Positions 1 through 12,593 of a stretch of 64,000 nt of DNA are shown here, in pieces. Location: contig NZ_CP042582.1 in NCBI RefSeq assembly GCF_008728835.1, positions 3,003,001 through 3,067,000 of the forward strand. Direction: 5' to 3'. A program made the translations under genes and the position numbers. This DNA comes from Hypericibacter adhaerens (GTDB lineage Bacteria; Pseudomonadota; Alphaproteobacteria; Dongiales; Dongiaceae). Under the pieces are notes generated by a model. That model did not search any database. It saw nothing but the letters and a program-made list of their open reading frames with translations, and was not told the origin of the DNA. Position 1 is the first letter of the stretch. The number at the start of each line of letters is the position of its first letter.

Positions 1-1651
1 TCTCCCGCGTAATCTCGCTGGCCGGCTTGTCTTCCCGCAAGCCCAGGAAGGAGGCCTGACGGACGAGCCCGTCCCGGGTCCAGGTGGCGAACTCGGTTTC
101 GCACACCAGGCTCGGCTCGACATAAGTCACGCCGCGTCGGGCTGCGGCGGGGATCGCCGCGAAGGGCGGCTCGTCTTGGCGGATCGGTTCGAGCCTGCGC
201 CGCAGCGCGAGCGATTGCGCCCGGCCGAAGCCGGTGCCGACCCGGCCAGCATAGCGGAGACGGCCGCCGTCGCCATAGCCCAGGAGCAGCGCGCCGACGC
301 CGGGCCGTCCCTTGGCCGGGCGGGTGAAGCCGCCGATGACGAACTCCTGGCGCTCGCGGCATTTGGACTTGAGCCAGCCCGTGCCGCGGCCGGAGCGGTA
401 CGGATCCTGGGCGCGCTTCGAGACCACGCCTTCCAGCGCCAGCTCGCAGGCATGGCGATAGATCTCGCCGCCATCGCGATCGAAATGCTGGCTGAACCGC
501 AGGACGCCGCGTTCGGTGGCGCCGAGCAGCCCGAGAAGCCTGGCTTTGCGTTCGAGAAGCGGCAACGCGCGCAGATCCTGGCCGTCGAGATAGAGCAGAT
601 CGAACAGAACGAAGGCGAGCTCGCCTTGCTCGTCACCGGAGAGGATGGCCTGCAGCTGGCCGAAATTGGAGAGCCCGTCGGCCTCGAACGCCACGATCTC
701 GCCGTCGAGCAGCGCCGTCTTCGCGGGCAAGGCCCCGACCGCTTTCGCGATGGCGGGAAAGCGCTTGCACCAATCGAGCCCGCGCCTTGTCAGAAGCGAG
801 ACCTTGCCGCCATCGAGCCGCGCCTGGATGCGGTAGCCGTCGAGCTTGATCTCATGCACCCAGCCTTCGCCCGCGGGCGGCGCCCCGACACGGGTGGCGA
901 GCTGCGGCTCGACGAAATCCGGCAGCCTGCCGCGCTTGCCGGCGGCCTTGACCGTCTTCGCAGGAGACGGCTTCGGCCTCGCCGCCTTCGCGGCATCTCG
1001 GCCGTCGGCGCCCGCATCGCCCCGGTTGCTGTGCCAGACCGATGAGCCGCGGGCGATCTCCTCCATGCTGCGGCCGGAGCGCACGCTGCGATCCGCCTCC
1101 TCGAGGAGGGCGCCGCCGTCACCGGGCTTCGCTTCGCCGTCGCGCCCCTTGATCAGGAGCCAGTTGTCGTGCTTGTCGCGCGGCGAGCGGCGGCGCATCC
1201 GCACCAGGTTCCATTCGCCCTTGAGCCGCTCCCCCTCCAGGCGGAACTTGAGCCGGCCCGCCCGCATCATGGCGTCGGGGTCGCCCAGCGGTTCCCAGCT
1301 CCCCTCGTCCCAGAGCATGACGGTGCCGCCGCCATATTGCGGCTTGGGAATGGTCCCCTCGAAGTCGCCATAGGCCAGCGGATGATCCTCGACATGCACC
1401 GCCAGGCGCTTGTCGGCGGGATCGAGGCTGGGACCGCGCGTCACCGCCCAGCTCTTGAGGACGCCGTCCATCTCCAGCCGAAAGTCGTAATGCAGCCGGC
1501 GCGCTGCATGCTTCTGGATCAGATAGCGGCGACCCCCGCTTCGTCCCTGGGCGCCGCGCGGTTCGGGCGTGGCCTCGAAATCCCGCTTGGCCCGATAGCG
1601 CGCCAGCGATTTGTCCCGGGGAGCCGCCTTCCGCCGCCGCCCTGCCCTCAT
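1..1651 (-). CDS. ligD: ATP-dependent DNA ligase LigD (3' part outside window)
   Basis: Joins DNA ends in bacterial non-homologous end joining with Ku. The frame is open for 550 codons from base 1651 to the left edge, so the C-terminus is missing. Residues of about 35-150 form the 3'-phosphoesterase domain, with the HAARRLHYDFRLE and HVEDHP metal-binding segments. The ligase adenylation domain follows, with the nucleotidyl lysine K269 in KLDGYR, then a C-terminal OB-type region (GFTRPAKGR, ARYAGRVGTGF-like). The order is phosphoesterase then ligase; a primase-polymerase domain could lie beyond base 1. The start ATG overlaps the ku stop as ATGA, so the two are translationally coupled. No frameshift is seen. 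Identification is secure; the full domain set is not visible. Confidence 0.93.
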   Translation of the reverse strand, partial: MRAGRRRKAAPRDKSLARYRAKRDFEATPEPRGAQGRSGGRRYLIQKHAARRLHYDFRLEMDGVLKSWAVTRGPSLDPADKRLAVHVEDHPLAYGDFEGTIPKPQYGGGTVMLWDEGSWEPLGDPDAMMRAGRLKFRLEGERLKGEWNLVRMRRRSPRDKHDNWLLIKGRDGEAKPGDGGALLEEADRSVRSGRSMEEIARGSSVWHSNRGDAGADGRDAAKAARPKPSPAKTVKAAGKRGRLPDFVEPQLATRVGAPPAGEGWVHEIKLDGYRIQARLDGGKVSLLTRRGLDWCKRFPAIAKAVGALPAKTALLDGEIVAFEADGLSNFGQLQAILSGDEQGELAFVLFDLLYLDGQDLRALPLLERKARLLGLLGATERGVLRFSQHFDRDGGEIYRHACELALEGVVSKRAQDPYRSGRGTGWLKSKCRERQEFVIGGFTRPAKGRPGVGALLLGYGDGGRLRYAGRVGTGFGRAQSLALRRRLEPIRQDEPPFAAIPAAARRGVTYVEPSLVCETEFATWTRDGLVRQASFLGLREDKPASEITRE

Positions 1652-2553
1652 GCCCGCTTTCGTGCCCGGCCCGGCGCGCGCGAAGGGGCCGCCCGCTTCT
1701 TGCGCGGCGCGGGAGCCTGCGGCCCGCGATCGATCCGGGTCTCGCTATCGCTCCCACTGCTCCGGCGACCCACGCTCCGCCGCAGGGCTTCCATCAGATC
1801 GATGACCTCCGCGCCCTTGCGCTCGGGTTCCTCGACCTGGATACGGCGTCCTTTCGACTTCAGCTTGCGCTCGATGAGCTCGCGCAGGGCATTCTCGTAG
1901 TGATCCTTGAAGCGGTCCGGCTCGAAATCGCCCGTCTTCTGCTCGATGAGCTTCTGCGCCAGCCCGAGCTGGTCCTTGTCGACGGGCACGTTCTTGATGC
2001 CGGCGAAATAGTCCTCCGCCTTTCGCAGATCCTCCGCATAGCGGAGCGTTTCCAGCAACATGCCTTTTCCGCAAGGTTGCAGGGCCGCGATGCGCTCGCG
2101 TCCCGACAGCACGATCTGCCCCAGCCCGATGCGCTTGGTCGAGCGCAACGCGTCCCGGATCACCACGAATGCCTCCATCGCCGCCTCGCCATCCGGCACG
2201 ACGAAGAAGGGTTCCTCGAAATAGATCGCGTCGATTTGGTTGCGGTCGACGAACCGCACGATGGAGAAGCTGTCCTTGGATTCCAGCCGCAGCGCCTTGA
2301 GCTCATCGGGCTCGATCAGAACATACTGATCCTTCGAATATTCGTAGCCCTTGGCGATGTCCTCGCGCTCGACGGCGCCCTGGCCCGGCACGACGTTCAG
2401 ATGGCGGACCCGCTTGCCGGTCGGCTTGTGGATCTGGTGGAACCGGATCTCGCTGCGCACGTCGACGGCGCGATAGATCGCGACCGGCAGCACCACCAGC
2501 GACAGGCGGATGGCGCCGCTCCAGGTCGGCCGCGCGCCCTTCGGCTCAGCCAT
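1648..2553 (-). CDS. ku: Non-homologous end joining protein Ku
   Basis: Forms the homodimeric ring that binds double-strand break ends and recruits LigD. The 301-residue protein is the usual bacterial Ku length. It opens with the family's typical segment (WSGAIRLSLVVLPVAIY), then FHQIHKPTGKRVRH, a GYEYSKDQYVLIEPDEL core and YFEEPFFVVPD. The C-terminal tail (about residues 265-301) is lysine/arginine-rich, as in other bacterial Ku proteins, where it aids DNA and LigD contact. The start overlaps the end of the upstream small membrane-protein gene by 8 bp, and its stop overlaps the ligD start, so all three are one transcription unit. Such systems mainly act in stationary phase or under stress, which fits the neighbouring EcfG-type promoters. 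Confidence 0.95.
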   Translation of the reverse strand: MAEPKGARPTWSGAIRLSLVVLPVAIYRAVDVRSEIRFHQIHKPTGKRVRHLNVVPGQGAVEREDIAKGYEYSKDQYVLIEPDELKALRLESKDSFSIVRFVDRNQIDAIYFEEPFFVVPDGEAAMEAFVVIRDALRSTKRIGLGQIVLSGRERIAALQPCGKGMLLETLRYAEDLRKAEDYFAGIKNVPVDKDQLGLAQKLIEQKTGDFEPDRFKDHYENALRELIERKLKSKGRRIQVEEPERKGAEVIDLMEALRRSVGRRSSGSDSETRIDRGPQAPAPRKKRAAPSRAPGRARKRA

Positions 2554-2785
2554 TGTTCATCCAATAGGCCAGGAGGATGCCGAAGGCGATCGTGACCATC
2601 GCGATCGAGATGCCGAGGATCTTGCGCAGATGACCGGAGGTTTCGCCGGACCGGGCCTCTTCCGTACTGAGCACCGGCTCGCCATGGCCGCCCGTTTTCC
2701 TGTCATGCGCGATGGCGCCCGGCTCGTCCTTGCTCATCTCGCGCCCGGGCATGAAGCCGTCCGTGTCCTCATCTTCGTCGCTCAT
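2546..2785 (-). CDS. Small acidic C-tail-anchored membrane protein
   Basis: A 79-residue protein of unknown function. Residues 1-50 are hydrophilic and acidic (MSDEDEDTDGF), and a single hydrophobic helix sits at the very C-terminus (ILGISIAMVTIAFGILLAYWM), so the bulk should face the cytoplasm. An ATG six codons upstream (base 2803) is also in frame, but AGGAGA lies 5 nt before the ATG at 2785, so the latter was chosen. It lies 14 bp after a small basic protein gene and overlaps ku by 8 bp. This position between a stress protein and ku makes a stress role likely but unproven. I do not recognise a named family. Confidence 0.7.
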   Translation of the reverse strand: MSDEDEDTDGFMPGREMSKDEPGAIAHDRKTGGHGEPVLSTEEARSGETSGHLRKILGISIAMVTIAFGILLAYWMNNG

Positions 2786-2799
2786 GAGATTCTCCTGTG

Positions 2800-3102
2800 T
2801 CATTTGCGACGGCCTGCCCTCGTCCGTGCCGCTTTCTTGGCGGATGCCGTCCGCGCCGCAGCCGGACGTGCCGCGGTCGCCCGGCCGCCACGCTTTCCGC
2901 CCTTCTCGTAGGGCTCCCGGTTCTCCGGCCGGCCTTCGCCGGAACCGCCCAAGCGGCCGCCGCCGGAAATCTTGTTCTCGACGGCCCAGGCCCGGCGCGC
3001 CGCCTCCTGGGGCGGAAAGCCGCGCTTCTCGAAACTGTCCTCGATATGCCGTGCCTGGCGCTTCTGCTTGGCAGTGTATTTCGATTTGTCGCCGCGTGGC
3101 AT
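2800..3102 (-). CDS. Small basic protein of the 'plasmid stabilization protein' type
   Basis: A 100-residue basic protein. The N-terminal half (MPRGDKSKYTAKQKRQARHI, then a helix with GFPPQEAARRAWAVENK) matches a short family often annotated in Proteobacteria as plasmid stabilization protein. The C-terminal half is Gly/Ala/Arg/Lys-rich and likely disordered, like a histone H1 tail, suggesting nucleic acid binding (inference). An upstream ATG at 3150 exists, but AGGAGA is 5 nt before the ATG at 3102. It heads the operon with the tail-anchored peptide, ku and ligD. It is chromosomal here, so the family name need not describe its role. Confidence 0.75.
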   Translation of the reverse strand: MPRGDKSKYTAKQKRQARHIEDSFEKRGFPPQEAARRAWAVENKISGGGRLGGSGEGRPENREPYEKGGKRGGRATAARPAAARTASAKKAARTRAGRRK

Positions 3103-3199: not shown

Positions 3200-3589
3200 T
3201 CAGAGCCAATAGGGCGGGATGCCGTAATAATCATGGAGGCGGGTGCCCCATTCGCGATCCGAAAGCTCCGCCTCGTTCTCGTAGCGCGGTGCCTTCTTGA
3301 GCGTGTCGGCATCGAGATTGACGACATAGCCGCTCTTGCCGGTGTCATAGCTGAGGACGGACCAGGGCAGAGCGTAGCGGCTCTGGCCGAGGCCGAGGAA
3401 GCCGCCGAAGGTCGCCACGGCGTAAGCGACCTTGCCCGAGAGCTTGTCGATCATGACCTCGTCCACCTCGCCGAGATGGTCGCCCTTGGGGTTGTAGATA
3501 TTGGTGCCATTGACCTTGTTGGCCCCGATGAGGCTGTAGGTCTCGCGCTGCTCGAGCGTGCTTTGAGTCTGGGGAATGGGCGACGCCAT
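3200..3589 (-). CDS. PRC-barrel domain protein
   Basis: A 129-residue soluble protein with one PRC-barrel (residues about 17-90: SLIGANKVNGTNIYNPKGD, then VDEVMIDKLSGKVAYAV). PRC-barrels are small beta-barrels found in photosynthetic reaction centre H subunits, RimM and many stress-induced proteobacterial proteins. The C-terminus ends with the conserved-looking WGTRLHDYYGIPPYW. The ATG is preceded by GGAGAG. A GGAAC-N16-AGTT motif 48 bp upstream suggests EcfG-type control. Its precise molecular role is unknown. Homologues commonly sit among general-stress genes, as here. Confidence 0.85.
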   Translation of the reverse strand: MASPIPQTQSTLEQRETYSLIGANKVNGTNIYNPKGDHLGEVDEVMIDKLSGKVAYAVATFGGFLGLGQSRYALPWSVLSYDTGKSGYVVNLDADTLKKAPRYENEAELSDREWGTRLHDYYGIPPYWL

Positions 3590-3636: not shown

Positions 3637-3661
3637 AACTGCGAAGGCCTCGATCCGTTCC
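3637..3661 (-). promoter_or_regulatory. EcfG-type promoter, near match (GGAAC-N16-AGTT)
   Basis: Read on the minus strand: GGAAC at 3661-3657, 16 nt spacer, AGTT at 3640-3637. The alphaproteobacterial EcfG consensus is GGAAC-N16/17-CGTT, so one base of the -10 differs. The -10 box lies 48 bp upstream of the PRC-barrel start codon. Confidence 0.6.
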
Positions 3662-3682
3662 GCTCCGCCCCGCATTCAGGGT

Positions 3683-3979
3683 TCAGGCCGGATCTGGTCC
3701 TGCAGGAAATCGCGGGGCGCGACCGGGCGGCGCCCCCGGCGGCTGGTCGGGCGGGAGATCGGGATTGCGCCGGCCCGGCAGCGGCATCGGCGGATCGGTC
3801 GGGCCCGGATCGCCCGGAACCGGATCGCCCGGCTGCGGCGGGCCCGGCGGCACCGGCTGGGGCGGATCCGGATCGGGGCGGCCGGGTCCGGGGATCGTGG
3901 CGAGACGCTGCCCTCGCGAAGGCGGAGCATAAGCTCGCCGGGCGCCGGGACGCCGATCCATCATCAGCTGCTTCCACAT
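3683..3979 (-). CDS. Proline-rich small protein
   Basis: A 98-residue protein of unknown function. After a short basic N-terminus (MWKQLMMDRRPG) it is almost wholly Pro, Gly, Asp and Arg (PDPDPPQP, PPGPPQPGD, PTDPPMP), so it should be disordered. Other minus-strand frames are open here because of the base composition. This frame was chosen for its strong Shine-Dalgarno, TAAGGAGG, 5 nt before the ATG. No signal peptide or membrane helix is evident. It sits between two EcfG-motif genes. Moderate confidence that it is translated; function unknown. Confidence 0.55.
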   Translation of the reverse strand: MWKQLMMDRRPGARRAYAPPSRGQRLATIPGPGRPDPDPPQPVPPGPPQPGDPVPGDPGPTDPPMPLPGRRNPDLPPDQPPGAPPGRAPRFPAGPDPA

Positions 3980-4048
3980 GAGAACCTCCTTAGGATCGAG
4001 CGACGCTGGCCCTGCTGCGTGACGAGCGGCGGCCTCCAGAAAGCAATC

Positions 4049-4078
4049 GGCCCGGCGTCGCGGGAGCGACGCCGGGCC
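4049..4078 (-). terminator. Stem-loop after the Gln-rich protein gene
   Basis: A perfect 13-bp GC-rich stem (4049-4061 with 4066-4078) and a 4-nt loop. It is 65 bp beyond the stop of the Gln/Asn-rich gene and upstream of the proline-rich gene. A T-rich stretch follows on the minus strand only after several bases (GATTGCTTTC). Confidence 0.65.
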
Positions 4079-4143
4079 TTCGCTCAGACGCGTTCAGTCA
4101 AACCTGACGGTCGACCTTCGGCGCCCTCGCTTGACGCGCAGGA

Positions 4144-4437
4144 TCAGTGCTTGCCGCCCTGCTTGTCCTCGCCACGCCCCACGCCCGGCTTGTTCTGATT
4201 CTGATCGCCCTTGCGATCGACGGGGACCTCGCGCGAGCGATCGGTGCCCTGCGCATAGCGCTCCTGCGGGCCGGTGCCGCCCTGACGGTCGCGCTGGCTC
4301 GGGTCATGCTGGGTGGGATCACCCTGCTTCTGGCCCTGACCTTGCCCCGGATTCCGCTGCGGGTTCTGCTGCATCTGCTGCGGATTCTGATTCTGCTGGC
4401 CCTGCTGCTGGCCGGGCTTGTCCATCGGGTTACCCAT
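4144..4437 (-). CDS. Gln/Asn-rich disordered protein
   Basis: A 97-residue hydrophilic protein. It starts MGNPMDKPGQQQGQQNQNPQ and continues with Gln/Asn/Pro/Gly repeats, then a charged second half (Arg, Asp, Lys, Gly) ending RGEDKQGGKH. There are no hydrophobic stretches and almost no aromatic residues, so it is probably intrinsically disordered. An ATG at 4479 is also in frame, but GAAGGGA precedes the ATG at 4437, and the EcfG-type -10 box at 4478-4481 would put the transcript start downstream of 4479. That settles the shorter form. Function unknown; a desiccation- or stress-protective role is only an inference from composition and promoter. Confidence 0.7.
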   Translation of the reverse strand: MGNPMDKPGQQQGQQNQNPQQMQQNPQRNPGQGQGQKQGDPTQHDPSQRDRQGGTGPQERYAQGTDRSREVPVDRKGDQNQNKPGVGRGEDKQGGKH

Positions 4438-4477
4438 GATGAATTCCCTTCGTGGTCGGGTTGTCGATACACACCAC

Positions 4478-4502
4478 AACGGCGGCTTTCGGTACCGGTT
4501 CC
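4478..4502 (-). promoter_or_regulatory. EcfG-type promoter, exact match (GGAAC-N16-CGTT)
   Basis: Minus strand: GGAAC at 4502-4498, 16 nt spacer, CGTT at 4481-4478. All nine consensus bases match. The -10 box lies 41 bp upstream of the Gln/Asn-rich gene start. Confidence 0.8.
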
Positions 4503-4625
4503 ACCGGTCTGCGCAAAGATGCCGGGCACGTCGCCCTTTGGCCTTGCCGGTCCGCGCGAGGACGAAGCCACAACAAGGTCACAGGAACGCTGGCTTCGGC
4601 GCCGGCGCCGCCTCGCGAAAACCTT

Positions 4626-4841
4626 TCAGGACTTCTTCCGACTGCCGCTCTTGCGGCTGCGACGCGGTGGGACCTTCTTCCCTTTCTTGCGCGCCTCCGA
4701 GATTCCGATGGCAAGCGCTTGCGCCCGGGTCTTCACTTTCCCGCCCTTGCCGCCGGGGCCGCTGCGAAGCGTGCCCTTCTGGCGTCGCCGCATGGCGCCG
4801 GCAACGGTTCGCGAGGCGGATTTGGAATATTTGCGAGGCAT
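4626..4841 (-). CDS. DUF6496 family small basic protein
   Basis: A 71-residue, very basic protein. It has the features of the DUF6496 family: MPRKYSKSASRTVAGAM, a KGTLRSGPGGKGGKVKTR segment, then a helix with QALAIGISEARKKGKKVP and a Lys/Arg/Ser tail. The function of the family is not known. Its basic charge suggests binding to nucleic acid (inference). It starts 75 bp downstream of the SDR gene on the same strand with no promoter motif of its own, so it may be cotranscribed from the EcfG-type promoter upstream of the SDR. SD: AAGGAGTGAG before the ATG. Confidence 0.8.
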   Translation of the reverse strand: MPRKYSKSASRTVAGAMRRRQKGTLRSGPGGKGGKVKTRAQALAIGISEARKKGKKVPPRRSRKSGSRKKS

Positions 4842-4916
4842 TGTCTCACTCCTTGCTATCGCCGGCGCACGCGAGACGGCGTGCCGGCTTCGTCCGACCC
4901 CGGTCGATGGACAGGC

Positions 4917-5903
4917 TCACCCGCCGCCATAGCCGCCGATGACGGGCAGGATCTCGCCGGTGATGTAGCTGGAGCAATGGGACGACGCGAGGAAGACGAA
5001 GGCCGGCGCGATCTCCTCGGGCTGGGCGGGACGCTTCATCGGCGTGTGGGCGCCGAACCGGCTGACATCCTCGGCCGACCGGTCCGCCGGATTGAGCGGC
5101 GTCCAGACCGGCCCCGGCGCCACCGCGTTGACCCTGATGCCGCGCTCGACCAGGTGGCTCGCCAGCGAGCGGGTGAAGGCATGGATGCCGCCCTTGGTCA
5201 TGGCGTAGTCCAGCAGCTCCTTGCTGCCCTGCAGGGCCGTCACCGACCCGTTGTTGACGATGGCGCCGCCGTCGGTCATCTGCTCGACCGCCGCCTGCGC
5301 CATGTGAAAATAGCCGTAGAGGTTGGTCTTGAGCGTGCGGTCGAAATGCTCCTCGGTCAGATCCTCGAACCGGGGCGTGTGGAGCTGGAAGGCCGCGTTG
5401 TTGACGAGGATGTCCAGGCGGCTCAGCTCCTTCACGACGCACGCGACGGCTTCGCGGCAGAACTGCCGGTTGCCGACATCGCCCGGAATCAGCAGGCAGC
5501 GCCGCCCCTCCCGCTCGACGGCCTCCCGCGTGACCGCGGCATCGTCATGCTCGTTGAGATAGACCAGGGCGAGGTCGGCACCCTCGCGCGCATAGAGCGT
5601 GGCCACGGCGCGTCCGATGCCGGAATCGCCGCCCGTGATGATGGCGACCATGCCCTTCAGCTTGTCCGAGCCCTTGTAGTAAGGCGCGTCATACATGGGC
5701 GCCGGCGACAGGAGCGCCTCCTCTCCCGGTTTCCACTGATGCTGTTTCGGAAAGGGAGGTGCGGGATAGGGCCGCGCACCCGCCTGCATCGCGCCTCCCG
5801 CCTTCTCCGGCGGCGGGCTGTCCTCGATGCGGTCGATCTGCTGCTGGATTTCCCGCTGCTCTTTCGCGGTCTGCTCGGCGCGTTCTCTGGAATCGGTTGG
5901 CAT
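4917..5903 (-). CDS. SDR family oxidoreductase (glucose/ribitol dehydrogenase type)
   Basis: An NAD(P)-dependent short-chain dehydrogenase of 328 residues, of the long-N-terminus type typified by Bacillus YdaD/YhdF general-stress proteins. The Rossmann motif TGGDSGIGRA sits at about 85-95. NNAA follows, then the active-site Ser of NGSVTALQGS, the YAMTK Tyr/Lys pair, and GPVWTPLNP. The first 75 residues carry a Glu/Gln-rich helix and the KQHQWKPG signature of this subgroup. A longer reading from 6008 is open, but the EcfG-type promoter at 5938-5962 lies inside it, so the ATG at 5903 is preferred. The substrate is not known. Confidence 0.88.
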   Translation of the reverse strand: MPTDSRERAEQTAKEQREIQQQIDRIEDSPPPEKAGGAMQAGARPYPAPPFPKQHQWKPGEEALLSPAPMYDAPYYKGSDKLKGMVAIITGGDSGIGRAVATLYAREGADLALVYLNEHDDAAVTREAVEREGRRCLLIPGDVGNRQFCREAVACVVKELSRLDILVNNAAFQLHTPRFEDLTEEHFDRTLKTNLYGYFHMAQAAVEQMTDGGAIVNNGSVTALQGSKELLDYAMTKGGIHAFTRSLASHLVERGIRVNAVAPGPVWTPLNPADRSAEDVSRFGAHTPMKRPAQPEEIAPAFVFLASSHCSSYITGEILPVIGGYGGG

Positions 5904-5937
5904 GATGTCTGCTCGCTTCCGGGCCGGTTCTCGACGC

Positions 5938-5962
5938 AACGCCGGCCCGGCCCTTCGGTTCC
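5938..5962 (-). promoter_or_regulatory. EcfG-type promoter, exact match (GGAAC-N16-CGTT)
   Basis: Minus strand: GGAAC at 5962-5958, 16 nt spacer, CGTT at 5941-5938. The -10 box is 35 bp upstream of the SDR start codon; it probably also serves the DUF6496 gene downstream. Confidence 0.8.
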
Positions 5963-6163
5963 CGCCGGCCCCCTCCTCCGCCCCGGGGCGGCGCTCCTCT
6001 GGGCCCAAGGGAGCGGCGGCGGGGATTTCCAGGAAAAGAAAGGGTTAACGCTCACCTTTTAGGCTGTCGGATTGGGCTTGGCCGACGTCCCTCCGGCCTG
6101 CCCAGAGGCGCCGGGGAAATCGACCGCTGGCGTCGAACCGCGACCCGGACGACAGACGAGCGC

Positions 6164-7372
6164 ATGACCCGACAGGATCTCAAGGTTCCCTCGCCGGAAG
6201 AGCTCAAGGCGATCATCGGCACGCATCTGCTCTGGACCCGCACGCCCTCCAAGGGCAAGCGCGGCGACCTCTCCTATTGCTCGTTGCCCGGCATCGATCT
6301 CTCCGGCCTGGACCTTCACGGCCTGGTCTTCACCGGCGCCGATCTGAGCGGCGCCCGGCTCGACAATTGCGATTTCACGGAATGCGACTTCTTCGGCGGC
6401 AATCTGTCGGGCGCGCATCTGCGGGGTGCCAAGCTCCGCCGCGCCATCCTGCGCGGCGCAAGGCTGGCGGGCACGGACCTCGAGGGCGCCGACCTGCATG
6501 AGGCGGATCTGCGCGAGGGCGTGCTCTATCGCCACCGCAAGCGCGTGGGCGAGATCGAGGTCGACGGCGTGGCCGAGGCGGAGATGACCAATTTCTTCCG
6601 CGCCGACCTGAGCAACGCCAAGCTGTCGGGCTCGGTGTTCAAGGGCGCTCGCATGGCGGGCGCCATCATGGCGAACGCCACCATGATCGGCGCCGACTTC
6701 TCGGGCTGCGACATGAGCGGCGCCGATCTGCGCGGCGCCAATCTCTCGGGCACCAACTTCACCAACGCCCGGATGGTGGGCGTCAAGATGGTGGGCGTCT
6801 CGATCGACAAGACGGTCTTCACCGGCGCGGACCTGACCGGCCTCATGCCCGAGGATATGAGCCAGGTGAAGGGCTGGGCCCGCGATGCCAAGTTCGACCC
6901 GCCTCCCGTCAACAACCGCGACAACCTGCCGGCCGTGCTGGAGACGCACGAGAAGTGGCTGCAATCCGACGGGCGCGAAGGCCAGCAGGCGGTGTTCGAG
7001 CGCGCCGATCTCTCGCGGATCGACCTCGCCGGCCGGATGCTGCGGCTGGTGGTGTTCCGGCGCTGCAGCCTGGCCGGCGCCGATTTCACCCAGACCCGGC
7101 TCTATGCCGTCGATTTCAGCGGCTCCGACCTGCGCCAGGCGCTGTTCCGCGGGGCCATGATGAAAGGCGGGCGTTTCGATGCCGCGGACCTCACCGGCAT
7201 CGACCTGACGGGCTCCCGGATCGCGCCGCTGCCGCTGGCCGGCGGTGCCCAGATCGCGACCAGCTTCCGCGGTGCCAAGCTCTCGCCGAGCCTCTTCACG
7301 GGCGCCGATGTGCTGGCCGGCGATTTCAGCGATACCGCGCTCGCGGGGAGCGGCTTTCCGTTCCGGGGCTGA
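6164..7372 (+). CDS. Pentapeptide repeat protein
   Basis: A 402-residue protein built from A(D/N)LxX pentapeptides, which fold into a right-handed quadrilateral beta-helix. Block one spans about residues 36-230 (for example GADLSGARLDNCDF, GADLRGANLSG). A non-repeat linker of about 50 residues with MPEDMSQVKGW follows. Block two runs from about 280 to 395 and ends GSGFPFRG. The first 30 residues (SPEELKAIIGTHLLW) may form a capping helix. No signal peptide or membrane helix is visible. Function cannot be assigned; some family members mimic DNA and inhibit gyrase, others are scaffolds. It converges with the HD-GYP gene with 12 bp between stops. Confidence 0.88.
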   Translation: MTRQDLKVPSPEELKAIIGTHLLWTRTPSKGKRGDLSYCSLPGIDLSGLDLHGLVFTGADLSGARLDNCDFTECDFFGGNLSGAHLRGAKLRRAILRGARLAGTDLEGADLHEADLREGVLYRHRKRVGEIEVDGVAEAEMTNFFRADLSNAKLSGSVFKGARMAGAIMANATMIGADFSGCDMSGADLRGANLSGTNFTNARMVGVKMVGVSIDKTVFTGADLTGLMPEDMSQVKGWARDAKFDPPPVNNRDNLPAVLETHEKWLQSDGREGQQAVFERADLSRIDLAGRMLRLVVFRRCSLAGADFTQTRLYAVDFSGSDLRQALFRGAMMKGGRFDAADLTGIDLTGSRIAPLPLAGGAQIATSFRGAKLSPSLFTGADVLAGDFSDTALAGSGFPFRG

Positions 7373-7384
7373 GTTCCCGAGGCG

Positions 7385-8659
7385 TCAGGCCGCGAACTCG
7401 AAATGCTCCTGCTCGAACAGGGCGAGACAAGCCTCGACCACGGCGGGATCGTAGATCGAGCCGGAGCCGCGGCGGATCTCCTGCAGCGCGGCCGCAGGCC
7501 CGATCGCCGCGCGATAGGGCCGGTGCGAGGTCATGGCCTCCACGGTATCGGCGACCGCGAGGATGCGGGCCTCGAGCAGGATCTGCTCGCCGACAAGGCC
7601 CCGGGGATAACCCGACCCGTCGAAGCGTTCGTGATGCTGGCGAACGATCTCCGCGAGCGGCCAGGGGAAATCGACCTTGTTCAGGATCTCGTAACCGGCC
7701 TCGGGGTGCGACTTGATCATCGCGAACTCGGCCTCGGTCAGTCGCGACGGCTTGCTCAGGATCTCGCTCGGAATCTGGATCTTGCCGATATCGTGGCAGA
7801 TGCTCGCATGCTTGAGCCCTTCGCGGCGATGCCGGTCGAGCCCGATCCGATCGGCGATGGCGAGAGCCAGCACCGTCACCCGCTCCTGATGACCGGCGAG
7901 ATAGCCGTCGCGCTTCTCCACCATGGTGGCGATGGCGGCGATGGTCTGGCGCAACGTCGCCTCCAGGCCGAACAGGTGGCGCTGAAGCCTCGCTTCCGCC
8001 TCGAGGCGCTGGCTGATGTCGCGCCCGCTCGCCAAGGCGCCGATGATGCGCCCGACCGCGTCCTTGAGCGGCACGCCCTGGAACTCGAAGGGCAGTGTCG
8101 AGCCGTCCTTGCGCAGGATCGTCACCTCGAGCCCGATCTGCTGCCCCTGCATCACCTTCAGGAAGGCTTCGATGGTTCGCGGCCGATCCGCCGGCGCGAC
8201 GAAATCCTGCATGGGCCGGCCCAGTATGTCTTCGCGCGCATGGCCGACGATACGGGTGCAGGCGAAATTGACGGCCGTCACGCGGGCCTGCGGATCGAAG
8301 GTCACCACGGGATCGGAGAGCGCATCCAGCAGCTCGACCCGCTGCTGGTGCGAGGCCGCCTGCTCGGTGGACTGCGCCATGGCAGCCCGGTGACAGTATC
8401 GCGAAAGGACGTAAACCAGGCCCGTCGAAAGCCCGATGAAGAGGAAGGCCTTGTTCGTCTGTCCTTGCGCGAAGAACGTTTCGTCACCGGCGGACAGGAG
8501 CAACAGAAGACTGTCCGAGACCAGGACCCAGGTGGCGCCGATCACGAAATAGAGCGCCGCCGCGGCCACGGGCGTCAGCAGCAGCAGCCATCGTGTCTCG
8601 TTGGCGTCGAGCCTCCCATGGCTCATCCAGCCTCTGAATTGTTCTCCCAGGACCCTCAT
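7385..8659 (-). CDS. Membrane PAS/HD-GYP cyclic-di-GMP phosphodiesterase
   Basis: A 424-residue signalling protein. Two N-terminal membrane helices (about 24-50 and 70-88) are followed by a PAS sensor domain (about 105-218). The HD-GYP domain (about 235-405) has H289-D290 in HASICHDIGKI and HHERFDGSGYP at 342-352. HD-GYP proteins with these residues hydrolyse cyclic di-GMP. There is no GGDEF or receiver domain. The start ATG is the first in frame, and the upstream region is unusually AT-rich, which may hold its promoter. The input signal is unknown. Confidence 0.92.
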   Translation of the reverse strand: MRVLGEQFRGWMSHGRLDANETRWLLLLTPVAAAALYFVIGATWVLVSDSLLLLLSAGDETFFAQGQTNKAFLFIGLSTGLVYVLSRYCHRAAMAQSTEQAASHQQRVELLDALSDPVVTFDPQARVTAVNFACTRIVGHAREDILGRPMQDFVAPADRPRTIEAFLKVMQGQQIGLEVTILRKDGSTLPFEFQGVPLKDAVGRIIGALASGRDISQRLEAEARLQRHLFGLEATLRQTIAAIATMVEKRDGYLAGHQERVTVLALAIADRIGLDRHRREGLKHASICHDIGKIQIPSEILSKPSRLTEAEFAMIKSHPEAGYEILNKVDFPWPLAEIVRQHHERFDGSGYPRGLVGEQILLEARILAVADTVEAMTSHRPYRAAIGPAAALQEIRRGSGSIYDPAVVEACLALFEQEHFEFAA

Positions 8660-9136
8660 GCATTCGTCCCCTTGGCATTCGGCTGATGCGGACGCTCAGC
8701 CCTTTGGACAATCCTGTTGTGTTATTTGAGGGTCAGGTTTCGCCCGAATGGTAAACATAACGTGACTATTTTCGGAATTTGGTCAGTTAATCAATGATCT
8801 AGAAAAACCTAAAATACACAGTAATTTTATGTTGTTAGGGGTTTCTACCGAGGGCGGCCACGGGGGAGCCCTGCGACAAAAAAGCGAGCAGCCCCCCGAT
8901 TTTTTCACCCGTAACGGGCCACTCGGCCGTCGGATTTCGGCGCGAGGCCCCGGTCCCGGCCCCTCCGGTTCCCACCGTGAACGATCCAAGGGTGAGATAT
9001 CTGGCGGGCTCCAGGAACCGCCTCTCTGCCCCAGGAGTTGAAGGCGGAGCGGTCGGTCAATCGGCCGCAGACGCCGGCGCGTCGAACTCCGTTCTTTCCG
9101 CGTGGCCATATCGATGCCGTCGCACGGAGAAATGTC
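8660..9136. other. Intergenic region with AT-rich tract
   Basis: No convincing gene. Bases about 8745-8840 are strikingly AT-rich for this genome (runs such as ATTTTATG, AACCTAAAATAC) and probably contain the promoter of the minus-strand HD-GYP gene. A GGAAC-N17-AGTT variant lies at 9014-9039. Confidence 0.5.
9014..9039 (+). promoter_or_regulatory. Possible EcfG-type promoter (GGAAC-N17-AGTT)
   Basis: GGAAC at 9014-9018, 17 nt spacer, AGTT at 9036-9039. It is 98 bp upstream of the next plus-strand start. It differs from consensus at the first -10 base; weaker than the three exact sites. Confidence 0.4.
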
Positions 9137-9430
9137 ATGATCAATCCCACAGCTCGTGCCGTGGGCATCCCCTGGTACCGCGGCGAGGATTACCTGACGC
9201 TTCGCTCCCGAATGGTCGATGCGGCGAGCCTGCCGCCGGTCTTCGACCAGTGGCTGTCCGTCGCCGAAGAGCTGGAGCAGCGCCTTCGCCACGAGGGCCA
9301 CGTCGTGGAACGCATCTTCATCGACCATGATGCGTTCCTGGAATGGTGCAGGAAAAAGAACTGCGGCTGGGACGCCGACGCGCGGGCCCGCTATGTGGAG
9401 GAGATCGTCGCGCGCCGGCATTTCAACTGA
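9137..9430 (+). CDS. Conserved-looking hypothetical protein
   Basis: A 97-residue soluble acidic protein, not assigned to a named family. It reads MINPTARAVGIPWYRGEDY, then a helix VFDQWLSVAEELEQRLRHEG, a strand VVERIFIDHDAFLEWC and a C-terminal helix DARARYVEEIVARR. The alternating helix/strand pattern and codon use look like a real folded protein. The ATG at 9137 follows GGAG at 8 nt; an earlier ATG (9038) would add an unconvincing Arg/Pro-rich extension that overlaps the possible promoter. I recall similar small proteins in other Proteobacteria, but no function. Confidence 0.7.
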   Translation: MINPTARAVGIPWYRGEDYLTLRSRMVDAASLPPVFDQWLSVAEELEQRLRHEGHVVERIFIDHDAFLEWCRKKNCGWDADARARYVEEIVARRHFN

Positions 9431-9460
9431 TCCGCGCCCGCGATCCTCCCTGCTCCCCGA

Positions 9461-9485
9461 GGAACCGGGTCCCGCATTCGGCGTT
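9461..9485 (+). promoter_or_regulatory. EcfG-type promoter, exact match (GGAAC-N16-CGTT)
   Basis: GGAAC at 9461-9465, 16 nt spacer, CGTT at 9482-9485. All nine consensus bases match. It lies 108 bp upstream of the secreted Thr/Asn/Gly-rich protein gene. Confidence 0.75.
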
Positions 9486-9592: not shown

Positions 9593-10111
9593 ATGAAACG
9601 TCTTCCGCTACTTCTCGCCAGCGCGTTGATCGCGATCGGAACGAGCGGCGCGGTCTGGTCTCAAAGCAGCTCGTCGGGCGGCTCCAGCAGCACGGGCTCG
9701 ACCCTTGGAACCGGCACCGGAACCGGCGCACCGATGAGCGACACGACGGGTGGCGGCCCGCTGGGCAATAGCGTGCCGGACAGCGCCGCGAGCCCGACCA
9801 CGAACAATCCCGCAACGAGCACGAATACCAATCTGAACACCAACACCGGCGTCAACCCGCTGACGGGGACCAACACCAACACGGGCACCGTGGGCTCCAC
9901 CAGTACCGGCACGACGTCGCCCAGCGCGACCGGCACCAATACCGGCACGAACACCGGCGTCGGCACCACGACGGGCGGTGTCGGCGTCAGCACCGGCGGC
10001 ACCGGCTCCAGCTTCGTGAACTCGGGCAGCAGCCACATCAATACGGTCACGGGCACCGGCGGGGCCAATCCGTCGATCCCGGACAGCGGTGCCGACGCCG
10101 CGACCCCCTGA
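9593..10111 (+). CDS. Secreted Thr/Asn/Gly/Ser-rich low-complexity protein
   Basis: A 172-residue protein with a clear Sec signal peptide (MKRLPLLLASALIAIGTSGA, cleavage near VWS-Q or SGA-V). After it, almost every residue is Thr, Gly, Ser, Asn, Ala or Pro, with repeating TNTNT, TGTNTGT and GTGTG units. There are no Cys, Arg or Lys residues in the mature part. It should be an extended disordered chain in the periplasm or outside the cell. The Shine-Dalgarno AAGGAGG is ideal, and an exact EcfG-type promoter motif lies upstream. Function unknown; the repeats make the gene prone to length change. Confidence 0.8.
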   Translation: MKRLPLLLASALIAIGTSGAVWSQSSSSGGSSSTGSTLGTGTGTGAPMSDTTGGGPLGNSVPDSAASPTTNNPATSTNTNLNTNTGVNPLTGTNTNTGTVGSTSTGTTSPSATGTNTGTNTGVGTTTGGVGVSTGGTGSSFVNSGSSHINTVTGTGGANPSIPDSGADAATP

Positions 10112-10252: not shown

Positions 10253-10540
10253 TCAGTTGGGGCGTCGCTTCGACCGCGACGGTTTGGCGGGGGACGGGGC
10301 CGACTGGGAAGAGCCGGGCAGGCTTTCCGCCGTGAGATCCCTCAGATAGCCCGGCACGGAATCCTCTGTCAGCGCGCGCCCATATCGGCGCAGCAGCTCC
10401 GCCTGCTTCCGCAGCCTCATGGTCTGCGTGCGCAGAACGGGATCCCCTTTCAGATGATTCAAGACAAGCGCTTCATCGTCTGAGCCGAGACGACCTTCGA
10501 CGAAATCCTGCAACATTCGCCGGGTGACGCGCCGCGGCAT
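10253..10540 (-). CDS. Anti-sigma-factor-like small soluble protein
   Basis: A 95-residue protein resembling the cytoplasmic N-terminal part of ECF anti-sigma factors. It has TRRMLQDFVEGRLGSDDEA, then LNHLKGDP, a long helix TQTMRLRKQAELLRRYGRAL, and the EDSVPGYLRDL motif, which parallels the EPVP-R-L motif of those proteins. There is no transmembrane helix and no Cys/His zinc motif; the C-terminus is a basic Ser/Pro/Lys tail. It is divergent from an EcfG-like sigma gene across 542 bp. Binding to that sigma factor is an inference. It is not a clear NepR. Confidence 0.65.
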   Translation of the reverse strand: MPRRVTRRMLQDFVEGRLGSDDEALVLNHLKGDPVLRTQTMRLRKQAELLRRYGRALTEDSVPGYLRDLTAESLPGSSQSAPSPAKPSRSKRRPN

Positions 10541-11082: not shown

Positions 11083-11730
11083 ATGTCCGAACATCCTTCT
11101 TTCGACTTCGCGCAGGAACTGATGGCCGCGGCCCCGGCCCTGCATCTCTATGCCCGCTCTCTCACCCGTAAGCCCGATGCGGCCGAGGATCTTCTTCAGG
11201 ACACGCTCCTGCGCGCCTGGGCGGGCCGACGCCACTTCACGCCCGGCACGAGCTTCCGCGCCTGGGTTTTCACGATCATGCGCCACCGGTTCCTCGATAT
11301 CTGCCGGAGGAACCGAAGCGTCGATCTGGATCTCGAGGGGCAGGCGGATCATCCCTCGCTGAGCACACCGGCGCATCAGGAGCTGGGCGTCGAGCTGCGG
11401 GAAATGGCCCAGGCCTTCTGGCGCCTGTCGGGAGACCACCGGGAAGTTCTTCTGCTCGTGGGCGTGATCGGCCTCAGCTACGACGCGGCCGCGGCCGTCC
11501 TGGGCTGCCGCCTGGGCACGGTCAGAAGCCGGCTCTCGCGGGCGCGCGACCAGTTGCAAGCCCAGATCGAGCATTTCGGAGAGCCGGTCCCGGACGAAGA
11601 GAGGACAAAGGAGAATGGCGACGACTGCCTCGCCCGGCTGTTGAGCGACCGGGACGCCTTGCTGGACCGCTCGGAAAGATATGCACGCAGCCATCGGCTT
11701 GCAGGAGCCACGCGGACCAACGTCGATTGA
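11083..11730 (+). CDS. ECF sigma factor, EcfG-like
   Basis: A 215-residue RNA polymerase sigma factor. Region 2 (about 17-80) has YARSLTRKPDAAEDLLQDTL and FRAWVFTIMRHRF. Region 4 (about 105-160) has LSGDHREVLLLVGVIGLSYD and GTVRSRLSRAR. These resemble the EcfG (ECF15) general-stress family. A tail of about 55 residues follows region 4. A longer reading from 10750 is open but has no sigma homology, so the ATG at 11083 was chosen, although its Shine-Dalgarno is weak. EcfG factors are normally released by PhyR/NepR; neither is seen in this window. It is the likely reader of the GGAAC-N16-CGTT sites nearby (inference). Confidence 0.85.
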   Translation: MSEHPSFDFAQELMAAAPALHLYARSLTRKPDAAEDLLQDTLLRAWAGRRHFTPGTSFRAWVFTIMRHRFLDICRRNRSVDLDLEGQADHPSLSTPAHQELGVELREMAQAFWRLSGDHREVLLLVGVIGLSYDAAAAVLGCRLGTVRSRLSRARDQLQAQIEHFGEPVPDEERTKENGDDCLARLLSDRDALLDRSERYARSHRLAGATRTNVD

Positions 11731-12140: not shown

Positions 12141-12164
12141 GGAACCAAATCGGTGTGACGCGTT
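12141..12164 (+). promoter_or_regulatory. Weak EcfG-like motif (GGAAC-N15-CGTT)
   Basis: GGAAC at 12141-12145 and CGTT at 12161-12164, with a 15-nt spacer, one base short of the usual 16-17. It is 82 bp upstream of the next gene. Low confidence. Confidence 0.3.
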
Positions 12165-12245: not shown

Positions 12246-12593
12246 ATGTCTGGGATTGAAGAGTTCGAAAGCCGGATTCACGCGGCCGAGACCATGCTGC
12301 AGGCGATGTTCTGCACGGTGACGGCCGACCTGATCCTGTTCCAGGCCGCCGTGCAGGCGCTGCGCGAAGAGGGTATCCTGACGGACAAGATGGTCGATCG
12401 CATCGCGATCGACGCCCATATCCGCCTTCAGCAGTTCGACGATACCGCGCTCAGCAAGCCGATGGCGGCGGAGATCGCCGCGCAGCTGGACGGCTTGGCG
12501 GAACGCCTGCGCGCCGCCGCTCCCTCCCGTCCCGTGATCGACCGTCCGGCGAGCGCCGTCGGCACCAGCGCACGAGCGGCGCCCAGCCGGTAA
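12246..12593 (+). CDS. Hypothetical helical protein
   Basis: A 115-residue soluble protein, family not recognised. Residues 1-90 look all-helical (EEFESRIHAAETMLQAMFCTV, ILFQAAVQALREEGIL, AAEIAAQLDGLAERLRAA), followed by a Pro/Ala/Ser-rich tail. No signal peptide or membrane helix. The ATG follows AGAGG at 7 nt. A weak EcfG-like motif upstream hints that it belongs with the stress genes on its left. Confidence 0.65.
   Translation: MSGIEEFESRIHAAETMLQAMFCTVTADLILFQAAVQALREEGILTDKMVDRIAIDAHIRLQQFDDTALSKPMAAEIAAQLDGLAERLRAAAPSRPVIDRPASAVGTSARAAPSR

Follow-up and report, generated by a model that had tools for sequence, protein, structure and literature searches.

EcfG-type promoter clusters beside sigma factor genes of Hypericibacter adhaerens and an apparent replacement of the PhyR-NepR switch

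We analyzed a 64,000-nucleotide stretch of the Hypericibacter adhaerens genome (contig NZ_CP042582.1, positions 3,003,001 to 3,067,000), hereafter the window, which carries a cluster of EcfG-type promoter sites near a gene for an extracytoplasmic function (ECF) sigma factor. The sites are very probably general-stress promoters. In the explanation that we favor, with a probability of roughly 0.6, (i) sigma factors of the EcfG clade read these sites, (ii) the PhyR-NepR switch has been lost in the genus, and (iii) a small protein resembling class I anti-sigma factors replaces NepR. Two papers describe this switch as the trigger conserved in the general stress response of Alphaproteobacteria (PMC4814048, PMC6599016); its apparent replacement is the new element described here.

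Three exact promoter matches and one near match lie where the original prediction had placed them, and two weaker candidates are additional to its list. Distances are to start codons, taken from the sequence and the list of open reading frames (ORFs); SDR stands for short-chain dehydrogenase/reductase.

4478..4502, minus strand: EcfG-type promoter, exact GGAAC-N16-CGTT, 40 bp upstream of the Gln-rich protein start at 4437
5938..5962, minus strand: EcfG-type promoter, exact GGAAC-N16-CGTT, 34 bp upstream of the SDR start at 5903
9461..9485, plus strand: EcfG-type promoter, exact GGAAC-N16-CGTT, 107 bp upstream of the secreted Thr-rich protein start at 9593
3637..3661, minus strand: near-match EcfG-type promoter, GGAAC-N16-AGTT, 47 bp upstream of the PRC-barrel protein start at 3589
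9014..9039, plus strand: weaker candidate promoter, GGAAC-N17-AGTT, 97 bp upstream of an ORF at 9137
12141..12164, plus strand: weaker candidate promoter, GGAAC-N15-CGTT, 81 bp upstream of an ORF at 12246

The motif had been claimed to occur by chance less than once in the window and to stand 35-108 bp upstream of four genes. Both claims agree with our counts: the exact pattern was observed three times versus 0.34 expected, none of 100 shuffles contained three matches, and the measured distances range from 34 to 107 bp. When spacers of 15-18 were permitted, four sites were found versus 1.09 expected, a count reached in 1 of 100 shuffles. Flexible -10 boxes are described for this promoter class (PMC7083833).

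The genome scan proposed with the original prediction gave a divided answer. The bare count showed no excess, as the exact pattern occurs 48 times in the 5.87-Mb genome and its reversed form 60 times; it was therefore dropped as proof of a regulon, and position was used instead. Relative to genes, the sites are clearly enriched: 24 of the 48 are intergenic compared with 10 of the 60 reversed-pattern controls (Fisher p 3e-4), and 19 of the 48, versus 2 of the 60, are intergenic and at most 250 bp upstream of a gene on the same strand (Fisher p 2e-6). Without the six sites of two clusters, this last comparison gives 13/42 versus 2/60 (p 1e-4). By the control rate, approximately 17 sites genome-wide are genuine. 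The genome contains two triplets, defined as three sites within 5 kb, and random placement gave two triplets in 0.17% of 20,000 trials. The genes around all sites and controls were called by a home-made codon-usage script, which starts the window sigma gene at 11122 instead of 11083 and the Thr-rich protein gene at 9734 instead of 9593, and overlooks small genes such as 10253-10540. The regulon had been presented as a cluster in the window; the cluster is present, but the regulon extends beyond it to the gene-upstream sites elsewhere in the genome.

Many of these 19 gene-upstream sites precede genes typical of general stress. Judged by eye and not by a family search, the downstream genes encode, among others, CsbD, DUF883-like, PRC-barrel-like, entericidin-like, and Fe-superoxide-dismutase-like proteins. 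Direct targets in Sphingopyxis granuli include csbD, ecnAB, and ku-ligD (PMC7083833), and EcfG-dependent genes in Sphingomonas melonis include PRC-barrel and Ku genes (PMC6599016).

The promoter of the SDR gene was compared across loci that contain an SDR relative, using the best 80 of 245. The pattern GGAAC-N16/17-NGTT was found at most 300 bp upstream of the SDR relative in 15 of the 21 non-Mesorhizobium alphaproteobacterial loci, a post hoc fraction, since the groups were taken from record titles after the first scan. It was found in none of the 52 Mesorhizobium-group loci (one of them titled only 'Bacterium M00...') and in none of the 7 loci labelled as other groups, and the reversed-pattern control gave 0/80. 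In an earlier scan, a less strict pattern was found in 15/80 loci, versus 4/80 for a control on the opposite strand. The window cluster could not be footprinted in the sister species of the same genus (G014) because its genome has no close SDR homolog.

The second three-site cluster (L113, at 3.82 Mb) adjoins a paralogous sigma gene, and its sites precede genes for a small membrane protein, CsbD, and a secreted PRC-barrel-like protein. In the sister species, the same three genes each have one site, one of them with N17 spacing. The window and the 3.82-Mb locus share a gene order, namely a small gene, a divergently oriented sigma gene, and a small membrane protein gene. Given the position of the sites, the kinds of genes downstream, the retained SDR promoter, and the second conserved cluster, the sites behave as EcfG-type general-stress promoters, as originally predicted. 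Chance matching, to which the higher reversed count might point, is highly improbable as an explanation in view of the position and clustering of the sites and their conservation at the SDR relatives and the 3.82-Mb locus.

The genes at the center of the proposed control in the window are as follows.

10253..10540, minus strand: probable soluble class I anti-sigma factor, 95 aa, without cysteine, from profile and structure comparisons
11083..11730, plus strand: EcfG-clade ECF sigma factor, a divergent paralog, from family match, tree, and bit scores
11761..12060, plus strand: small membrane-like protein, with a paralog behind the 3.82-Mb sigma gene (about 30% identity, E 3e-9)

In a 57-row tree, the four sigma factors of the genus form a clade (support 100/98) within a 27-row clade (99/94) that also includes 11 NepR-linked EcfGs and 12 other sigma factors of the family. 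Of the 28 sigma factors encoded beside anti-sigma-like matches, 27 fall outside this clade, and L192 is its sister (92/85). Two of the 14 other family sigma factors (L145, L149) group with sigma factors linked to class I anti-sigma domains (ASDI). The tree excludes one PhyR row, the G011 sigma factor, which a contig end truncates, L193, which lacks a sigma match, and loci whose genes were already included from larger stretches. The approximately unbiased (AU) test neither rejected (p 0.206) nor demonstrated a single clade of the genus's own sigma factors (OWN) plus the NepR-linked ones; in the test of OWN plus ASDI, the set took in L192, sister to the EcfG clade, and its p-value thus overstates the result.

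The sigma factor at 11083 had been called EcfG-like and the probable sigma factor for the sites. Its place in a clade with NepR-linked EcfGs upholds the first part, and in most nepR-bearing genomes of the family its best match is the EcfG encoded beside nepR. However, it scores only 113-138 bits against the 11 NepR-linked EcfGs, with other family ECFs reaching up to 121, whereas the 3.82-Mb paralog scores 145-177 bits; membership by score is thus clear for the paralog and narrow for the window sigma factor. By these lower scores, the window sigma factor is EcfG-like but divergent, need not read the sites, and the 3.82-Mb gene appears to be the better candidate for the main EcfG. It is somewhat unlikely, in our view, that the window sigma factor reads another promoter, that the 3.82-Mb EcfG alone drives the sites, and that the neighborhood is coincidental. 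Besides the divergence, such an arrangement would fit the window motif scan, which found no EcfG-type site before the window sigma gene or its small neighbor (10253-10540); it sits less well with the shared clade, with a region 4.2 sequence similar in both sigma factors, and with a gene order matching that at 3.82 Mb.

We next consider the switch itself, which appears to be lost in this genus. The Pfam NepR model matched 10 of the 17 genomes of the order and gave no match in H. adhaerens or the sister species; it also overlooked G003 and G006, which have NepR and are both recovered by a family profile. This NepR profile from 12 loci, with all candidates scored, matched 12 of the 17 genomes and neither genome of the genus at E 0.1. 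A profile of the PhyR sigma-like domain matched the same 12 genomes with 186-224 bits. Its best match in H. adhaerens is the EcfG paralog (24 bits), and that in the sister species is an ECF-like protein (43 bits). Thus, 12 of the 17 genomes have both NepR and PhyR. Because the same 12 genomes supplied the sequences for both profiles and so match by construction, the real test is provided by the two genomes of the genus and by G002, G007, and G015.

Queries with whole PhyR gave 13 matches in H. adhaerens and 17 in the sister species. All but one (29/30) start at query residue 126 or beyond, in the receiver part; the other (E 1.9e-4) starts at residue 64 and lies in a 1253-aa frame. PF22029 was dropped as a PhyR test, its two H. 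adhaerens matches being the two sigma genes. A class-wide PhyR survey (67/385 genomes at E 1e-18) was likewise dropped as evidence of absence, because at most 10 candidates were scored per genome and some weak matches are ECF-like; the sole match in G158 (70 bits) lies in a 206-aa frame with the ECF motif AW[LMI]F. In family genomes with PhyR-NepR (L117, L119-L124), the divergent phyR and nepR genes are separated by a region with near-palindromic GGAAC...GTT sites, and a single site may serve both strands.

The regulon could instead be an ordinary one, with a NepR-PhyR pair that is too divergent or sits on an unassembled plasmid controlling the 3.82-Mb EcfG, and with the small proteins as accessory anti-sigma factors. 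NepR is short and can diverge, and the Pfam model did overlook it in G003 and G006. Nevertheless, the family profile that recovers these two genomes (both of which helped to build it) finds nothing in the two genomes of the genus at E 0.1, neither has a PhyR sigma-like domain, and each is a single contig that is 99% complete. We consider this arrangement unlikely.

Each of the two sigma genes has, in divergent orientation beside it, a gene for a small soluble protein (75-95 residues), and the same is observed in the sister species. At 3.82 Mb, this small gene is preceded by a near match (AGTT) at a distance of 97 bp. The 10253-10540 protein has profile matches to anti-sigma-like proteins adjoining ECF sigma factors, and, of the ten structural entries listed for its predicted structure, the top seven are ECF anti-sigma complexes. 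The predicted structure has the three-helix domain with a further helix that characterizes ASDI in ChrR, RslA, RsiW, and MucA. From these profile and structure comparisons, the protein is a probable class I anti-sigma factor that would bind a sigma factor. The NepR model PF18557 did not match it up to E 1, and a profile comparison with NepR aligned 24 columns with a probability of 20%; NepR was not among the structural rows listed, an absence that excludes nothing. A sequence search of PDB with the anti-sigma profile returned chance-like matches only.

A survey with this profile, scoring at most 13 candidates per genome, gave matches in 67 of 385 genomes. At 29 of the matching loci outside the genus, 21 frames are long (approximately 250-340 aa) with a hydrophobic stretch, three are small (L186, L187, L192), and five were left unresolved by the script. 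In G219, a small anti-sigma-like protein (L301, 5664-5900) is encoded beside a non-EcfG ECF sigma gene and passes the Pfam NepR cut-off (28.4 versus 25.7 bits); an EPxP helix motif may be common to NepR and class I anti-sigma factors. Between the small gene and the sigma gene, the 3.82-Mb locus (L113, 4955-5257) and its counterpart in the sister species (L163, 9854-10165) encode a conserved protein of about 100 aa without a Pfam match, which could take part in the mechanism. In the sister species, the small gene is preceded by two palindromes, CCGACCTAAGTCGG and CCGACTTAAGTCGG (L163, 9544-9578), perhaps a regulator site.

The proposed mechanism has its sequence basis in the position and conservation of the promoters, the sigma clade, the undetected NepR and PhyR, the predicted fold of the window protein, and the gene adjacency; the pairing of sigma factors with sites, binding, release, and stress induction are what we infer. 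The EcfG-clade sigma factors encoded at 11083 and at 3.82 Mb, each with a cluster of probable targets nearby, would read the general-stress promoters. The small class I-related protein most likely takes the place of NepR and would hold the sigma factor in unstressed cells. Under stress, the sigma factor would be freed, perhaps by proteolysis, a ligand, or a partner protein. At 3.82 Mb, the near match upstream of the small gene might allow feedback. In its full form, a stress response rewired so that EcfG and its promoters are kept, PhyR-NepR is lost, and a stand-alone class I anti-sigma factor controls the sigma factor, the proposal is evenly balanced in our judgement.

Other genomes bear on this proposal in different ways. 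Five of the 17 genomes of the order have neither detectable NepR nor PhyR, and the pair may have been lost more than once in the family. Two of these five, G002 and G007, keep an EcfG-like sigma gene; its neighbors encode CsbD, a small membrane protein, and a DUF883-like protein, and three GGAAC-N16-NGTT sites are present there in each genome; no anti-sigma gene was called nearby by the gene caller, which can overlook small genes. In G158, from another family, a small anti-sigma-like gene follows an exact site by 37 bp and an adjoining Dps-like gene also has an exact site, which may be a parallel to the rewired response. G219 and G110, however, have small anti-sigma-like genes yet keep PhyR, which argues against a simple rule.

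Comparison with known systems shows where this one differs. The PhyR-NepR-EcfG (ECF15) systems of Alphaproteobacteria share its promoter motif, sigma clade, and kinds of target genes; here, in contrast, NepR and PhyR are undetected, and a class I type small protein is encoded beside each of the two sigma genes. NepR is a class II anti-sigma factor (PMC8103513). The EcfG2 paralog of Rhizobium etli is similarly EcfG-like and is reported to have no adjoining NepR-type anti-sigma factor or response regulator (PMC3892343); R. etli, however, has NepR and PhyR elsewhere in the genome, whereas none were detected genome-wide here. The SigE-ChrR system of Rhodobacter sphaeroides, with a soluble class I anti-sigma factor, resembles ours in the predicted fold of the small protein. 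ChrR is zinc-dependent, whereas the window protein lacks cysteine and its sigma factor is EcfG-like. The ZAS class of anti-sigma factors is treated in PMC8999054. Because NepR and PhyR were looked for and not found, we do not class the system as PhyR-NepR-EcfG; it is probably an EcfG-like regulon under a different brake. No description of an EcfG response without PhyR and NepR was found in the literature searched, mostly without subscription papers.

The remaining genes around the window sites are listed below.

3200..3589, minus strand: PRC-barrel protein (PF05239, E 1.4e-14)
4144..4437, minus strand: Gln-rich protein from the ORF list, without a Pfam or NCBIfam match
4626..4841, minus strand: DUF6496 protein (PF20106, E 5.5e-27)
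4917..5903, minus strand: SDR family oxidoreductase (NF005214, 483.5 bits, cut-off 413)
9593..10111, plus strand: secreted Thr-rich protein from the ORF list, without a Pfam match

The DUF6496 and SDR genes may be cotranscribed. On the minus strand (2-3102), genes for LigD, Ku, and two small proteins overlap in a run that follows the PRC-barrel gene downstream and might share its promoter. In L089 and L095, the SDR relative likewise has Ku and LigD (2-2553 in the window) nearby; LigD in these loci was not counted as having a conserved promoter, the site nearly touching the start of the match. Relatives of the ORF at 2800-3102 have an exact site at most 150 bp upstream in 5 of 24 loci versus 1 of 24 for the control, a weak signal. 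Between the promoter sites lie genes judged by eye to encode a pentapeptide-repeat-like protein (6164-7372) and a PAS plus HD-GYP-like protein (7385-8659).

If the proposed replacement is true, stress must reach EcfG by a route other than PhyR-NepR. The lineage would then demonstrate that regulons and their inputs are able to evolve separately, and one could test how control of a master stress sigma factor passes to an anti-sigma factor from a different class.

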